Of a DNA stretch of 64,000 bases, positions 3,326 through 37,102 are shown piece after piece; position 1 is the stretch's first letter; each line of letters begins with the position of its first letter. The DNA is taken from NCBI RefSeq assembly GCF_021531055.1, contig NZ_JADYTL010000002.1, positions 62,001 to 126,000 on the forward strand, given 5' to 3'. The translations under genes and the position numbers were made by a program. The DNA is from Collinsella tanakaei (GTDB lineage: Bacteria > Actinomycetota > Coriobacteriia > Coriobacteriales > Coriobacteriaceae). The notes beneath the pieces were generated by a model. It was not told the origin of the DNA and made no database searches. It saw only the letters and a program-made list of their open reading frames with translations.

Positions 3326-3426
3326 ATCCAGAGGGTGTATAGCGTTGCCGCGCGATTCACAGGCTCTCCATAAGTTAACCGACCGAAACTTATTCGCGAG
3401 TCTGACCGGCTTCCGAGGTCGTGCGC

Positions 3427-3435
3427 TGGCATAAT
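3427..3435 (+). promoter_or_regulatory. Extended -10 promoter for the MGMT-family gene
   Basis: TGGCATAAT matches an extended -10 element (TGn plus CATAAT). No clear -35 is seen. Transcription from here would give a 5' leader of about 25 bases that includes the GAAAGGA ribosome site. Confidence 0.45.
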
Positions 3436-3467
3436 GGAAGGTGCACCGCGCACCGAAAGGATTCCCC

Positions 3468-3800
3468 ATGGGCGAGACATCACAACGAGACGGCTTCTTC
3501 TCGCGCGTCTACGAGACGGTCGAGCAGATCCCCGAGGGTTTCGTGGCGACGTACGGCCAGATCGCCAAGCTCGTCGGCGAGCCGCGGCGTGCCCGATACG
3601 TGGGATATGCCCTGCATGCGAACCCCCGTCCCGGCGAGATCCCCTGTCATCGCGTCGTCTTCGCCGACGGGCGCATCTGCGAGGGTTTCGCGTTCGGCGG
3701 ACCCGAGGCGCAGCGCGCCCTGCTCGAAGACGAGGGCGTGGTCTTTCGCGACGACACGCACGTCGACCTTGCGATGAGCCGCTGGCCGGCGGGACTCTGA
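3468..3800 (+). CDS. MGMT-family DNA alkyltransferase-like protein
   Basis: Stand-alone C-terminal, DNA-binding half of O6-alkylguanine-DNA alkyltransferases, 110 residues. The PCHRVV box with the acceptor cysteine (about residue 60) is intact, unlike ATL proteins in which Cys is replaced by Trp. It may therefore still transfer alkyl groups, although single-domain members are often of uncertain activity. The N-terminal part has the usual IPEGFVATYGQIA helix-turn-helix entry. The ATG at 3468 was preferred to an upstream in-frame GTG at 3441 because GAAAGGA precedes it and the -10 element lies just before 3441. A second, longer Ogt is encoded at about 12.6-13.0 kb. Confidence 0.8.
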   Translation: MGETSQRDGFFSRVYETVEQIPEGFVATYGQIAKLVGEPRRARYVGYALHANPRPGEIPCHRVVFADGRICEGFAFGGPEAQRALLEDEGVVFRDDTHVDLAMSRWPAGL

Positions 3801-3997: not shown

Positions 3998-5512
3998 GTG
4001 AACGAGCGCAGCGACGGCAAAGTCTACCTATGCATCGACCTCAAGACGTTCTACGCGTCCGTGGAATGTGCCGATCGCGGGCGCGACACGCTGACCTGCA
4101 ACCTCGTGGTGGCCGACCCCGACCGTGGACGCACGACCATCTGCCTGGCGGTATCCGCCGCCATGAAGAAGCTCGGCGTGCGCAATCGCTGTCGCGTGTT
4201 CGACATCCCGGAGAACATCGACTACATCATGGCCAAACCGCGCATGCGCCACTACATGGAGGTGTCGGCCAAGATCTACGGCATCTATCTGGAATACGTG
4301 AGTCCCGAGGACATCCACGTGTACTCCATCGACGAATGCTTCATCGACGCCACGCCCTACCTTTCGCTCTACCACACGACGGCACGTGCGTTCGCCCGGG
4401 AGCTCATGGATGCCGTGTTCGCCCGCTGCGGTATCCGCGCCACGGCGGGCATCGGGACCAATCTGTTCCTGGCCAAGGTGGCGCTCGACATCACGGCCAA
4501 GCACGTGGACGACGGCATCGGCTACCTCGATGAGGAGCTGTTCCGCCAGCAGATCTGGCGCCACCGCCCCATCACCGATATCTGGGGTATCGGCCCGGGC
4601 ATCGCGGCGCGGCTCGCCAAGTACGGCGTGGCCGACCTCATGGGCGTGGCGGCGCTCGACGAGCGGATCTTGTACCGCGAGTTCGGCGTGAACGCGGAAT
4701 ACCTCATCGACCATGCCCACGGCGTGGAGCCCTGCACCATCGCCGAGATCCACGCGTACGTGCCCGAGGCGACCTCCATCACGAGCGGGCAGGTGCTGCC
4801 ACGCAACTACAGCTACGACGAGGCGCGCACGGTGCTGCGCGAGATGGTGGACGCCTCGGTGCTCGACCTGGTGGCGAAGCACGCGGTATGCGACGGCATA
4901 TCGCTGTATGTGGGGTATGCCAGCGACCAGCGCGACCTGGCGCGCCTGGGTGCGAGCGGCAGCGCGCGGATCACCGACAGCTGCGGCGTGGAGCATGCGA
5001 GCGACCATGGGTTGCTCCCCGATACCGTCAGTGCGCCCCATGGAGCGCAGGGCACCTCATCCTACAGCGCCGACGGCATACGCGCGCGGCAGGCCCTTCG
5101 CGACCCGGACGCCGCCTCGCCGAGCACCGTGTTCACCGGCGAGCACGGCAGGCGCACCGTCCGGGGACGCCGCGCCTATGGGTACGCCGAGGCCTCGCGC
5201 AAGCTGGGCGAGCGCACCAACTCCTTCAAGCGGCTCATGGCGCGCTTCGATGCGCTGTATACCGAGATCGTCGACCCCGCGCGGCCCATCAAGCGCGTGA
5301 ACATAGGGTTCGGCGGCCTGCTGCCCGAGGAGTTCGCGACAGTCGACCTGTTCACCGACGTGCAGGCCGAGCAAAGCGAGCGCGATCTTGCCGACGCCAT
5401 GCTCGCCGTGCGCGGCAAGTACGGCAAAAACGCCCTGCTGCGGGGCACGAGCTACAAACAGGGCGCCACGGGACGCGAACGCAACGAGCAGGTGGGAGGC
5501 CATCATGCCTGA
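3998..5512 (+). CDS. Y-family DNA polymerase (UmuC/DinB-like), SOS-type
   Basis: Error-prone translesion DNA polymerase of 504 residues. The GTG at 3998 is chosen because GAAGGAGGG precedes it; upstream in-frame codons run into the promoter. The palm carries CIDLKTFYASVEC (catalytic D14) and YSIDECFID (D112, E113), the three metal-binding acidic residues. The helix-hairpin-helix region DIWGIGPGIAARLAKYG follows, and then a little-finger domain with an unusually long variable stretch (about residues 310-400). This form, with a YolD-like partner, is the Gram-positive UvrX/YqjW-type polymerase rather than the shorter enterobacterial DinB. The gene overlaps the next by eight bases, so the two are probably cotranslated. 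Confidence 0.9.
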   Translation: MNERSDGKVYLCIDLKTFYASVECADRGRDTLTCNLVVADPDRGRTTICLAVSAAMKKLGVRNRCRVFDIPENIDYIMAKPRMRHYMEVSAKIYGIYLEYVSPEDIHVYSIDECFIDATPYLSLYHTTARAFARELMDAVFARCGIRATAGIGTNLFLAKVALDITAKHVDDGIGYLDEELFRQQIWRHRPITDIWGIGPGIAARLAKYGVADLMGVAALDERILYREFGVNAEYLIDHAHGVEPCTIAEIHAYVPEATSITSGQVLPRNYSYDEARTVLREMVDASVLDLVAKHAVCDGISLYVGYASDQRDLARLGASGSARITDSCGVEHASDHGLLPDTVSAPHGAQGTSSYSADGIRARQALRDPDAASPSTVFTGEHGRRTVRGRRAYGYAEASRKLGERTNSFKRLMARFDALYTEIVDPARPIKRVNIGFGGLLPEEFATVDLFTDVQAEQSERDLADAMLAVRGKYGKNALLRGTSYKQGATGRERNEQVGGHHA

Positions 5513-5942
5513 GAACCCGAAAACGCGACGGATGGCGTCGCCCTGGGGAAACTTGGAGTTCACGCCGGTCGAACAGCCCGCGACGGTTCCGGGCGGTGCC
5601 TCGCGCGATCGGGCCACGCGGCGCGCCGACGGGCGACCGCGCGCGAGCCGTGCGGCCCAGTTCATGCCCTTCGCGGCGTTGACCGGCTACTACGACCTCG
5701 TGCGCGAGCAGGAGCGCATCGTGGAGCCCCGCCACGAGCTCACCGATGAGGAAGGCGAGGAGCTTTCGCGCGCCATCATGCAGATGCGCCGCGGCGACCT
5801 CGTGCGCATCACCTACTACGACCGCGGGGGATACAAGACGCGCGCCGGCGTCATCCGCGCCATCGAACCCGAGCGCCGTCGGCTGTATCTGGGGGACGAC
5901 ATGATCCCCTTCGACGACATCTGGAAGCTCTGGCGGCCCTGA
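5505..5942 (+). CDS. YolD-like protein, partner of the translesion polymerase
   Basis: Protein of 145 residues with the YolD signature RAAQFMPFAAL, followed by EQERIVEPRHELTDEEGE. YolD proteins are encoded next to Y-family polymerases in many Gram-positive bacteria and have been proposed to act like UmuD; the biochemical role is not settled. The ATG overlaps the end of the polymerase gene, with GGGAGG upstream. The N-terminal 45 residues are a basic, Pro/Arg-rich extension. The C-terminal part (about 95-145) is beta-rich and ends in DDIWKLWRP. Confidence 0.8.
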   Translation: MPENPKTRRMASPWGNLEFTPVEQPATVPGGASRDRATRRADGRPRASRAAQFMPFAALTGYYDLVREQERIVEPRHELTDEEGEELSRAIMQMRRGDLVRITYYDRGGYKTRAGVIRAIEPERRRLYLGDDMIPFDDIWKLWRP

Positions 5943-32831: not shown

Positions 32832-33737
32832 TTACCGGGACGCGCGCATGGCAAGCGTGATGGTAAGGATACCGTCCCTCACCTCGGCCGCGATGTCCAT
32901 CCCCATGGCCCGGGCCAAGTTCGCACAGATCGCAAGCCCCAAACCGCTGCCGGCAGCGCCTCGTGTCGCATCCGCCTGGTAGAAGCGATCGAACAGCCGC
33001 GCCGCTTCGATGGACTCCGGATTCGCGACAGCGTTCGAAACGCTCAGCTCAACGCGATCGCCCTCGCGCCGTGCCGAAACCCTCGGGGCTGCCGAGCCGT
33101 GCCTCAGGGCATTCACCACGAGATTCGTGAGGACGCGAGCGAGCGCGTCGCGGTCTGCCTCGACGGCTGCAACGGTGTCTTCGAAGATAACCTGCGGCTC
33201 CCATCCTCGCTCCTCGAAGGTCGGATACTGCCCCAGCAAGACCTCCTCCACGAAGGGCTTGAGCGCCACGGGTTCCAGCGTGAGCGCAAGGTCCGGATCG
33301 GTCGACTTCGTGTAGGCGAAGAGCTGGTCGAGCAGCTCCGTCGTGGCGTCGATGCGCGCCGCCGCAGCGTCCAGATGCCGCGCACGCTGGACGGCATCCG
33401 CCTCGTCGCACGCAAGCTGCAGATAACCCTTAGCCCCCATGAGCGGCGTGCGGATGTCGTGGGAAAGCGCCGAGAGGTCACGTTGGAACTCCTGCTGATG
33501 TCGCAGCGCCTCGATATGCGCCTGCGCGCTGCGGTCGAGCTCGGTGTTGATAGCGTCCGCCAGATCCGTGACGCCCGGCGCGCCACCCGCCGTCACGCGC
33601 ATGTTGCTCTGCGGGCCGCGCTCGCGCAGAAAGCGCGCGATGCGGCGCACCTCACCCACGTAACGTGCCCCGGCGAGCAACGATCCCATGCCCAACCCGA
33701 TCACGACCAAGGCGATAGCGACCAGACCGGTATCCAT
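32832..33737 (-). CDS. Sensor histidine kinase
   Basis: Membrane histidine kinase of 301 residues. One N-terminal helix (about 4-24) leads to a short linker. The dimerisation helix has LSHDIRTPLMGAKGYLQL (phospho-His about residue 93), and the ATPase domain has LTNLVVNALRHG (N box) and GAAGSGLGLAI (G box). The lack of an outside sensing domain is typical of intramembrane-sensing kinases tied to peptide-antibiotic ABC pumps. The ABC and response-regulator genes lie upstream on the same strand, beyond a terminator and a MITE-like element. The ATG at 33737 follows GGGAGGGTTC. Confidence 0.85.
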   Translation of the reverse strand: MDTGLVAIALVVIGLGMGSLLAGARYVGEVRRIARFLRERGPQSNMRVTAGGAPGVTDLADAINTELDRSAQAHIEALRHQQEFQRDLSALSHDIRTPLMGAKGYLQLACDEADAVQRARHLDAAAARIDATTELLDQLFAYTKSTDPDLALTLEPVALKPFVEEVLLGQYPTFEERGWEPQVIFEDTVAAVEADRDALARVLTNLVVNALRHGSAAPRVSARREGDRVELSVSNAVANPESIEAARLFDRFYQADATRGAAGSGLGLAICANLARAMGMDIAAEVRDGILTITLAMRASR

Positions 33738-33906
33738 GAACCCTCCCAACACATCGCCTTTTCGTTGCACCTGGTGCCATTGTGCCGAAAACGATCGGTT
33801 ATGACCATCTGCCGATGTCATGACGCGGCGAACGGCGGACGATCCGGCGTCCGCATGGCGGCCTTACGTGACTCGCACGACTCAACATGGGCCCTTCCAT
33901 CCCAAT

Positions 33907-34122
33907 CTGGACAATCTGTTCAGATATGAAGGTCCAGGAGTGCGGCTGATCGCATCTGACCGCCAAAAGAGCCGTAAATATTGTCATGAGCCCTTTTGTT
34001 TTGGCCGTTCTGTATGATATGTCCGTTTGAATTCGCCATTTTTCTCATATGGACACCGTCATATCGAGCGCGAAGCCCCGCTTGGCGCCAGAGAAACCTT
34101 CATATCTGAACAAATTGTCCAG
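33907..34122. repeat. 216-bp MITE-like element with 27-bp terminal inverted repeats
   Basis: CTGGACAATCTGTTCAGATA plus ATGAAGGT (33907-33933) is inverted at 34096-34122 with a single mismatch. The interior is AT-rich compared with its surroundings and has no ORF. It lies between the ABC permease and the histidine kinase in a 495-bp gap that otherwise holds only a terminator. No target duplication is clear. Confidence 0.65.
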
Positions 34123-34232: not shown

Positions 34233-35117
34233 CTAGATATCGCGCTTGCGGGAGATGAAGAGCACGACGGCGCCCGCGGCGACGATCCAGATGATACCTG
34301 TGAGAACGGCCTGAATACCCGGGTCGACGGTAAAGGCACGGCTTGCCTCTCCCCAGATATCGATCGACGCGTTGAAGAACAGCTGCCCACCCTGGCTCAG
34401 GTTGTTGAGCGCGGTGGAGGGCATCCATGTGGCGAGCGTCTCGAAGACGGGTGCCAGCGGCTCGAGGAAGCGCAGCACACCGCCGGAAGAATACGCGAGA
34501 CCCATGAGCATCTGCGGCACGACCGAAGCGGTGAAGCAGAAAGCGCCGATATAGCTCACCGGGCTCACGCGGGTCGCATACACAAGGATGAGCGAGCACG
34601 CGGAAAGCGCCCAGGTGTTGAGCCAAAAGCCCAGGAACCAGCCGATGACCTCGACGGGACCCTCCGACGCGGCGAACTCCGGATGACCCGCTGTCATGAT
34701 CGGCAGAAACGCCAGCGCGACGACGGTGGCGAACAGGATGACCAGCGCGGACAGCACGCCCGCGAACAGCAGCTTGCCGACGATATATGAAAGCCTGCCC
34801 GAACGTGCCGAGAGCACGGACTTGATGTAGCCGCACTTGAACTCGGCCAGGGAATGCTCCACGACCATGAACGCCACGCAAAGCGGCACGAGGCCGTTCA
34901 GCATGTCGGCGAAATACACCGTGAGCGAGGTCTTGGTCACCACGTTGCCGATGGTGCTGCCGGTCATGTCGACATACATCTGGCTGTTCGCAAAGGCCAC
35001 CAGGGCCATGACGATACCATAGGCGGCGAGGATCGCAATGCCGTACTGCCAAAAGCTACCGCGCAGGCCGCGCGGGCGGGTGATGCGGTACAGGTCGGAT
35101 TTGATGAGGTTCAGCAT
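34233..35117 (-). CDS. ABC-2 type permease, peptide-antibiotic resistance type
   Basis: Membrane component of an ABC exporter, 294 residues, six or more helices. Its N-terminus (MLNLIKSDLYRITRPRG) and the EHSLAEFKCGYIKSVLSAR segment after helix 2 are typical of LanE/LanG- and BcrB-like permeases that remove lantibiotics or bacitracin-type peptides from the membrane; the ligand here is unknown. GGAAGG, which precedes its ATG, lies within the end of the 23-codon ORF just upstream, so translation of the two is likely coupled. Confidence 0.8.
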   Translation of the reverse strand: MLNLIKSDLYRITRPRGLRGSFWQYGIAILAAYGIVMALVAFANSQMYVDMTGSTIGNVVTKTSLTVYFADMLNGLVPLCVAFMVVEHSLAEFKCGYIKSVLSARSGRLSYIVGKLLFAGVLSALVILFATVVALAFLPIMTAGHPEFAASEGPVEVIGWFLGFWLNTWALSACSLILVYATRVSPVSYIGAFCFTASVVPQMLMGLAYSSGGVLRFLEPLAPVFETLATWMPSTALNNLSQGGQLFFNASIDIWGEASRAFTVDPGIQAVLTGIIWIVAAGAVVLFISRKRDI

Positions 35118-35121
35118 GGTC

Positions 35122-35193
35122 TTACCTTCCTTTGCGGCGGGGGAACAAAGCGGGAACGAGTTCGACGAGCAGGTCGATCAGGCAGTCGAGCAT
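35122..35193 (-). CDS. 23-residue hydrophobic peptide between ABC ATPase and permease
   Basis: Tiny ORF that begins four bases after the ATPase stop, with GGGAGGTAGGACG directly before its ATG. It ends four bases before the permease ATG. The product starts MLDCLIDLLVELVPALF and ends in a basic PRRKGR. It has alternating Asp/Glu and Leu/Val/Ile, so a short amphipathic or membrane-surface helix with a positively charged end is likely. Position and ribosome site argue for real translation. It may be a small regulatory subunit of the pump, a signal for the nearby kinase, or only a device that couples translation. No homologue is recognised. Confidence 0.55.
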   Translation of the reverse strand: MLDCLIDLLVELVPALFPRRKGR

Positions 35194-35197
35194 CGTC

Positions 35198-36226
35198 CTA
35201 CCTCCCTGCTCGCATATGCGATGGCGTGTAGGCAACCTGGCCGGCGCCGCCGTCCATAAGCTCCACGAAATAGTCCTCGATATCGCGCTCGAGCACCGAA
35301 AGCTCCAGTACCACCTGGTCGGCTTCGTGCAGGATGTGCGAGACATCCTCGACCGACGGCGCACCGGATGCCGCGGGGTCGGTCGCCGCACCGCCGAAAG
35401 CCGCGGTGGCACGACGTGCTCCCCCTCCGATCACGATGGCCTGATCGGGCTCCACGCGAAACGTCGAGGCCGGCAGGCGCTCCTCGAGGATCGCCAGTGC
35501 GCGGGCGGGGTCGGCTGTCCGCACGCGCACCGAGCTTCCGCAGGTGGCGTGCAGCTCCTCGTCGGTGAACTCGCGCACCATGCGACCGGCCGCGATGACG
35601 CCGAAGCGCGTGCACACGCGCATGAGCTGGTCGAGCACGTGGCTCGAGATGACGATGGTCACGCCGCGTTCCCGGTTGAGCCTCACGAGCGAGCGGCGCA
35701 GGTCGCGCGTGGTCTCGGGGTCCATGCCGTTGAACGGCTCGTCGAGCAGCAGCAGGTCGGGCGAGCCCACGAGCGCGAGCGCGAGGCCCAGGCGCTGCTT
35801 CATGCCCTGCGAGAACTTTTTGACCTTGCGCGCACCCGCCGCCTCGAGACCCACGAGCTGAAGCAGTTCGCCCACCCGCTCGCGTGGACGCACCACGCCC
35901 ATCGCGAGCGCCTTCATCATGAGGTTCTCGCCTGCGGAGAAGTTGGGCATGACGCCCGGCTCCTCGATGAGCGCGCCGATGCGCGAGGACCCGCCCGAGA
36001 AGCTGCCGGCGCGACCAGCGCCCGTCTCGCCGCTGCCGAACAGCGCGAGCTCGCCTGAGGTCGGGGTCGTGAGGCCGGCGATCATCTTCATGGTCGTCGA
36101 CTTGCCGGCGCCGTTCTTGCCGACGAAGCCGTAGATGTCGCCTTGGGCCACCTGCATATCCAGGTGGTCGACGGCAAAGGCCTTCCCGTATCGCTTGGTG
36201 AGGCCGCGGATATCGATCACGTTCAT
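35198..36226 (-). CDS. ABC transporter ATP-binding protein (BcrA/LanF-like)
   Basis: Cytoplasmic ATPase of 342 residues that would pair with the permease downstream. Walker A is GKNGAGKSTTM (about 36-46), the signature is KFSQGMKQR and Walker B LLLLDEPFNGMDP, with the H-loop in SSHVLDQ. The C-terminal extension of about 120 residues, with DPARALAILEERLP and a Gly/Ala-rich stretch, is usual for drug-resistance ATPases of the BcrA kind. The start at 36226 has GGGAGCAACC before it; an in-frame ATG at 36238 is possible. The operon order is response regulator, ATPase, small peptide, permease. Confidence 0.85.
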   Translation of the reverse strand: MNVIDIRGLTKRYGKAFAVDHLDMQVAQGDIYGFVGKNGAGKSTTMKMIAGLTTPTSGELALFGSGETGAGRAGSFSGGSSRIGALIEEPGVMPNFSAGENLMMKALAMGVVRPRERVGELLQLVGLEAAGARKVKKFSQGMKQRLGLALALVGSPDLLLLDEPFNGMDPETTRDLRRSLVRLNRERGVTIVISSHVLDQLMRVCTRFGVIAAGRMVREFTDEELHATCGSSVRVRTADPARALAILEERLPASTFRVEPDQAIVIGGGARRATAAFGGAATDPAASGAPSVEDVSHILHEADQVVLELSVLERDIEDYFVELMDGGAGQVAYTPSHMRAGR

Positions 36227-36374: not shown

Positions 36375-37102
36375 TCAGCCTTCCTGCAGTTTGAAGCCCA
36401 TGCCCCACACCGTCTTGATGTAGCTGTCGGTGCCGCTCGCCTTGAGTTTGGCGCGGATGTTGGACACGTGCACGTTCACCGTGTTGTCGTCGGCCGCGTA
36501 CGGTTCGCCCCATGCCCGCTCAAACAGCTCCTGCTTGGAGAAGACACGCTTGGGATGGGAGATGAGCGCCTGGAGGATGTTGAACTCGATGCGCGTGAGC
36601 TCCACCGGCTCGCCCGCCACCGTAAACGTGCGCGCCTCCGGATCGAGTTCCCACGTGCGGAAACGCAACGCACTCGAAGACTCGCTGTTCGCCGTGCCGT
36701 CTGCTACGTCGCCACCCGTGCCGGCAAGCCCGCGATGCCGCAGCTGCACCTCGATGCGCACCACGAGCTCGTCAAGGTCGAACGGCTTGGTGAGGTAGTC
36801 GTCCGCCCCGAGCTTGAGCAGGTCGATGCGGTCGGAGGCCGCCGTGCCGCCGAGATGACGATGATAGGCACGCGCGCATCCCGCTCGCGGATGAGGGAGA
36901 CGAGTTCCTCCCCGTTGAGACCCGGCAGCATGAGATCGGAGACCACAATGTCGAACGGGAACACGTCGCCGCTGGCGAGCAACCGCGCCTCGCTGCCGGA
37001 GAAGGCCTGGGTGCACTCCATGCCATGCCGCGCCAGATGCGTGGCGACGATCTGGTTGATATCGGCATCGTCCTCGACGAGCAACACGCGCACCGCGCCC
37101 AT
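36375..37102 (-). pseudogene. OmpR-family response regulator, frameshifted
   Basis: DNA-binding two-component regulator. The receiver domain starts at 37102 (GGAGGAG upstream) with VRVLLVEDDADIN (acidic pair) and DIVVSDLMLPGLNG (phospho-Asp). After VPIIVISA the frame is lost near 36848 and resumes in another frame with TAASDRIDLLKLGADDYLTKPF, then an intact winged HTH ending VWGMGFKLQ. Restoring one base (for example GCGCGCACG for GCGGCACG) would join the two halves perfectly. Either the gene is newly inactivated, or the shift is a sequencing error or a programmed event. It is the obvious controller of the ABC genes downstream. Confidence 0.8.

Follow-up and report, generated by a model that had tools for sequence, protein, structure and literature searches.

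Within the window (the whole 64,000-nucleotide stretch of Collinsella tanakaei DNA that we analysed), a minus-strand operon encodes a response regulator, an ABC transporter ATPase, a permease and a histidine kinase, and a 23-codon open reading frame (ORF) lies between the ATPase and permease genes. Its features are the following.

32832-33821, minus strand: histidine kinase with HisKA and HATPase_c domains, likely start at about 33737.
34233-35117, minus strand: ABC-2-type permease, 294 aa, a largely helical membrane domain (AlphaFold model, pLDDT 82.7).
35122-35193, minus strand: microprotein ORF, 23 aa, MLDCLIDLLVELVPALFPRRKGR, of the acidic-stripe "E" type (translation; purifying selection in relatives; site-specific profile match).
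35125-35130, minus strand: GGAAGG-type ribosome-binding site of the permease inside the final microprotein codons, read from the sequence.
35198-36226, minus strand: ABC transporter ATPase, 342 aa (PF00005, E 1.1e-27; nearest NCBIfam model TIGR03740, below its cut-off).
35201-35206, minus strand: GGGAGG, ribosome-binding site of the microprotein inside the final ATPase codons, read from the sequence.
36375-37102, minus strand: OmpR-type response regulator (Trans_reg_C, E 3.7e-26; frames and alignment to the related loci L041 and L042).

The junction and its operon

On the minus strand, the ATPase stop codon (TAG, 35200-35198) is followed by four bases (GACG) and then by the microprotein reading frame, which runs from an ATG at 35193 to a TAA at 35124-35122; another four bases (GACC) lead to the permease ATG at 35117. 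The GGAGG core of the upstream ribosome site stands 7 bases from the microprotein ATG. When the sequence was re-read, the layout given in the initial annotation, with its 23 codons, 4-base gaps on both sides, GGGAGG and internal permease ribosome site, proved correct to the base. The product had also been described as an amphipathic peptide with regular acidic residues and a basic end, and we indeed obtained a hydrophobic moment of 0.40, with acidic residues spaced by 40 degrees around the helix. Since 155 ORFs of at least 20 aa occur within 12 kb of this GC-rich sequence, a 23-codon open frame is weak evidence by itself, and the case rests on conservation in relatives.

The pump likely exports peptides or drugs. 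The ATPase is nearest to a lantibiotic-protection subfamily (TIGR03740, 191 bits, E 2.3e-56), which agrees in part with the earlier naming of a "resistance" operon, but the score falls short of the 309.75-bit cut-off, so that this assignment holds as a family-level inference only. The permease has no Pfam match, and the solved folds nearest to its model are the membrane domains of PmtCD and NosDFY, a weak and generic similarity (TM-score 0.55-0.59, E 3e-3). The histidine kinase has a single membrane helix, at its N-terminus, and lacks an extracytoplasmic sensor domain; all relatives have this layout (e.g., L042, 6358-7284), which merits study for itself. Compared with L041 and L042, the response regulator lacks one base between 36847 and 36848, so that its receiver domain is broken in this assembly, through either an assembly error or a real regulatory loss. 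Between the permease and kinase genes lie 27-base inverted-repeat arms (33907-33933 and 34096-34122; 96% complementary, 162 bases apart), and similar arms, which often come in pairs about 140-160 bases apart, give 56 matches at many other sites of the genome, the pattern of a dispersed palindromic element.

Distribution of the microprotein gene

Relatives were collected by searching the permease (P0003) in the genus and family, and a permease profile in the class. Among the 32 Coriobacteriaceae permease loci compared (L009-L040), 27 carry an ORF of 23-30 codons (longer in three) directly upstream of the permease. In most genomes, it begins no more than about 10 bases from the ATPase stop, ends 3-5 bases before the permease and contains the permease ribosome site. 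Two loci (L022, L023) have, before the permease, a hydrophobic ORF that is longer and whose kinship is doubtful, one (L021) has a broken ORF whose tail runs on into the permease, and no microprotein ORF was present at the permease junction of the other two (L024, L040). Four genomes (L036-L039) differ in spacing: their ORF stops short of the permease by 36-146 bases and retains the hydrophobic core and basic tail, with the pattern MGxLILDxxxxGAIAYLLxxGRRR in three of the four. Among loci, the peptide start lies -8 to +10 bases from the ATPase stop, in varying frame, and a programmed frameshift from ATPase into peptide was accordingly rejected.

Outgroup operons from Eggerthellaceae, Atopobiaceae, Bifidobacterium and Clostridia have ATPase and permease genes that overlap by 1-23 bases or are separated by at most 11 bases, leaving no space for such a gene. 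The microprotein ORF is thus an addition specific to Coriobacteriaceae. Two divergent Coriobacteriaceae paralogues (L116, L117), checked separately, have gaps of 65-97 bases at this junction and no microprotein ORF.

Strong matches to the microprotein profiles were confined to these junctions (Y type, described below: 396 genomes of the class; E type: 65 genomes of the family), while weak matches elsewhere were at chance level. As the matches include training sequences, the informative part of this result is the absence elsewhere. In Pfam we obtained three matches only, all at chance level (E 0.03-0.36, one member each) and to unrelated families, with no subunit family among them, short profiles having little power in such searches. 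NCBIfam, PHROGs and PDB gave no significant match to the microprotein, tblastn with a single query per collection found no plasmid or phage copies, and a defence-system library returned generic ATPase matches only. The microprotein family is absent from the libraries and literature searched.

Selection on the amino acids

Across eleven independent pairs of sequences, the pooled pN/pS of the microprotein frame was 0.36 (binomial P 4e-9), compared with 0.85 and 2.21 in the control frames, and differences at codon positions 1, 2 and 3 numbered 39, 15 and 56. The pN/pS was 0.41 (P 2.6e-6) when the comparison excluded the five terminal codons that the permease ribosome site overlaps. Simulations with transition bias and stop avoidance (2000 runs) gave a neutral expectation of 68.2 +/- 4.0 amino-acid differences for all trimmed pairs against 46 observed, and 15.1 +/- 2.1 against 6 for the subtype found in the window; none of the 2000 simulations was as low in either case. 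Identity of the microprotein exceeds that of the permease in deeper pairs (L009/L015, 78% vs. 57%; L015/L016, 91% vs. 66%). Conservation arising purely from the ribosome site is ruled out by the trimming and by the spaced ORFs of L036-L039, since an ORF that keeps its core and tail 36-146 bases from the permease must be more than a ribosome site.

Taken together, these comparative patterns make it very probable that the ORF is a microprotein gene, translated and under selection. The initial annotation had proposed an unrecognised gene that stops, frame changes or a lack of amino-acid selection in relatives would argue against; relatives were examined for all three, and the proposal survived. 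The gene has stayed beside the permease in evolution, and conservation, selection, profile confinement and operon context all mark it as a protein-coding gene kept next to its transporter partner.

Two types of helix share the same slot

Microproteins at these junctions fall into two types. The Y type (xINVAVIGALVYLLSSGRKGR) forms a uniformly hydrophobic single-span helix, with a moment of 0.02-0.09 and a mean hydrophobicity of 0.69-0.87. The E type, which includes the window (LDCLIDLLVELVPALFPRRKGR and LDLIxDAxxAxIEIVFSxRKKGR), is amphipathic (hydrophobicity 0.51-0.61, moment 0.38-0.44), with its acidic residues on one helix face at 200, 240 and 280 or 220 degrees. Leave-one-clade-out profiles recovered the Y clades withheld from them with E-values between 1e-13 and 0.007, one member, L064, reaching only E about 1, and their best match off the junctions was at E about 5 or worse (284 kb); the E subclade of the window was not recovered by such profiles built from the other clades. 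An hhalign comparison of Y and E types gave 95% (E 2.8e-8) for the whole sequences and 40% without the tail. This support comes partly through the shared tail, which makes common descent of the two types likely from their sequences, not proven. Descent of the peptide from the kinase membrane helix (hhalign 0.4%) or from permease helix 1 (0.9%) was considered and rejected.

The Y type, long forms included, occupies the early branches of the permease tree that have a clear peptide, and is the ancestral and more widespread of the two. E and Y types alternate within the crown group, where a Y locus (L012) and an E locus (L013) with 92%-identical permeases are sisters, and in one genome (G055; L026, equivalent to L047, at about 3411-3574 of the latter) a Y and then an E microprotein stand in tandem between ATPase and permease. 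This tandem suggests that the present pattern may stem from a two-peptide ancestor with differential loss, or from cassette exchange. No permease column follows the peptide type, so co-evolution with the permease is not seen.

Gene rearrangements point to the permease as partner

The order response regulator, ATPase, peptide, permease, histidine kinase is found in nearly all loci that extend far enough. Strain YIT 12063 of C. tanakaei (L062) has the order peptide, permease, ATPase, permease, histidine kinase, with no ATPase upstream of the peptide. In a metagenome assembly (G064; L052, equivalent to L034; 4577-5001), an internal deletion has left a short remnant of the ATPase gene, and response regulator, microprotein, permease and histidine kinase remain. 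Because the peptide is kept before the permease in both, the permease is the partner that it follows. A hint of a physical link comes from one further genome (G056; L165 at about 5470-5615, record 294469 onward), in which a permease is immediately preceded by a 47-residue ORF, an in-frame fusion of a permease N-terminus and a microprotein-like helix. Its permease part scores 36 bits against the permease profile, the score of its helix is equalled by 1 of 2000 shuffled decoys, and the ORF ends in a KGDGR tail; two tandem permeases and a kinase follow it, and the ATPase and response regulator form a separate cluster on the opposite strand.

A proposed role and its alternatives

On balance, and by analogy with small subunits of other transporters, we favour the reading that the ORF product is a membrane microprotein that serves this ABC exporter as a dedicated accessory and would bind the permease to tune or stabilise the pump. 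The initial annotation had suggested a small subunit of the pump or a signal to the nearby kinase, both of which stay hypotheses here. Translation of the microprotein from the operon mRNA would start at a ribosome site of its own and would probably be coupled to that of the upstream ATPase and the downstream permease; the product would adopt one helix inserted in, or lying along, the membrane, with the basic tail at the cytoplasmic face. By binding the permease, it could stabilise the complex or tune its substrate range. An Eggerthellaceae relative (L067) has the order response regulator, ATPase, permease, histidine kinase without the peptide, and this and the other outgroups show that the peptide cannot be essential to this kind of pump.

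The compact junction could also be read as a translational bridge, the ORF conveying ribosomes across the gap between the ATPase stop codon and the permease start codon, with its amino acids irrelevant, as its closeness to both genes and the enclosed permease ribosome site in most genomes would suggest. We regard a mere bridge as very improbable and close to excluded from the sequence comparisons, since amino-acid selection remains without the last five codons, the ORFs of L036-L039 are conserved at a distance from the permease, and outgroups link the two genes by plain overlap. Position and composition are equally what one might expect of a regulatory nascent peptide that sets the amount of permease by stalling near its basic tail, dependent on membrane insertion or a drug. 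MifM-type leaders are regulatory nascent peptides that act by such ribosome stalling, and here a conserved hydrophobic segment and basic end directly precede the permease, with its ribosome site in the last codons. This mechanism nevertheless seems improbable for a peptide encoded mid-operon, found 36-146 bases from the permease in four genomes, existing in versions of 38-67 codons and belonging to either of two physically different helix types in the same slot.

Two other readings place the peptide in a signalling context. The window's 23-aa amphipathic helix (moment 0.40) might be exported by the pump as its cargo, with the role of a signal or of a bacteriocin and with the kinase as a possible sensor, and the permease model is indeed nearest to the membrane domain of PmtCD, an exporter of phenol-soluble modulins. 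That fold match is weak and generic (E 3e-3), however, and the ancestral type, whose transmembrane helix is uniform and carries a positive end, suits retention in the membrane; as the kinase lacks an extracytoplasmic domain for sensing and outgroups retain pump and kinase without the peptide, we hold export of the peptide to be improbable. Alternatively, the microprotein could pass the state of the pump to the single membrane helix of the sensor-less kinase. The conserved operon and the kinase, which has a single membrane helix and lacks an extracytoplasmic loop, are compatible with such a relay, which we still consider unlikely given the equal kinase layout without a peptide in the Eggerthellaceae relative and the dissimilarity of peptide and kinase helix (hhalign 0.4%). 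A broader speculation, to which we likewise give little weight, is that the junction is a Coriobacteriaceae-specific slot where transmembrane and amphipathic micro-helices swap or coexist and couple the pump to the sensor-less kinase, with the 23-residue peptide as sensory relay.

For the preferred permease-bound accessory as for its alternatives, orthologous operons with a membrane-spanning, an amphipathic, both, a broken or no peptide mean that function could be read by comparing pumps, and this spread of states is an unusually good natural experiment. Since such genes fall under the size limit of the usual gene callers, similar subunits may hide in other ABC operons.

Comparison with known small subunits and pumps

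Among the closest parallels is VraH of the staphylococcal VraDEH system, a small membrane protein whose C-terminus is positively charged and which partners an ABC peptide-detoxification pump under two-component control (PMC5786555). The window peptide likewise has a basic tail and sits beside an ABC pump and a two-component system, and its relatives include clear single-span helices, whereas the window's own type is amphipathic (hydrophobicity 0.57, moment 0.40). VraH works with a Bce-type permease that has 626-651 aa and ten helices, as opposed to 294 aa and an ABC-2-like fold here, the VraH motif YYKRREEKGK is absent (tails are RRKGR, RKGR, RRR or RTR), and, unlike VraH, the peptide has 23-30 aa and is encoded between the ATPase and permease genes. 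Lantibiotic-resistance pumps with two-component regulators, such as CprABC and LanFEG (PMC5786555), resemble this operon in the nearest NCBIfam model of the ATPase, the short permease and the adjoining two-component system. They have one ATPase and two different permeases, whereas the window's operon has one permease, with adjacent response regulator and histidine kinase, and it differs further in an ATPase below the family cut-off, a sensor-less kinase and the extra microprotein.

Within other complexes, KdpF is a single-helix subunit encoded beside its large partner. The same is described for CydX (PMC4325964, PMC6005532), and the second of these papers asks how much sequence change such a subunit tolerates and reports plasticity; this would fit interchangeable E and Y types. 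Both resemble the microprotein as very short, hydrophobic, sequence-plastic subunits within the operon of their complex, but they belong with an ion ATPase and an oxidase, and the microprotein matches neither family in Pfam. AcrZ, likewise small and with a membrane helix, tunes the drug efflux pump AcrB (PMC7267776). AcrB is an RND pump, in contrast to the ABC pump here, and the microprotein gave no family match. The AcrZ gene is located outside its pump operon. By analogy, the microprotein would most likely work like VraH or AcrZ while belonging to neither family, and would bring a family absent from the libraries searched to the short list of transporter-tied microproteins, among which we found none described in gut Actinomycetota.
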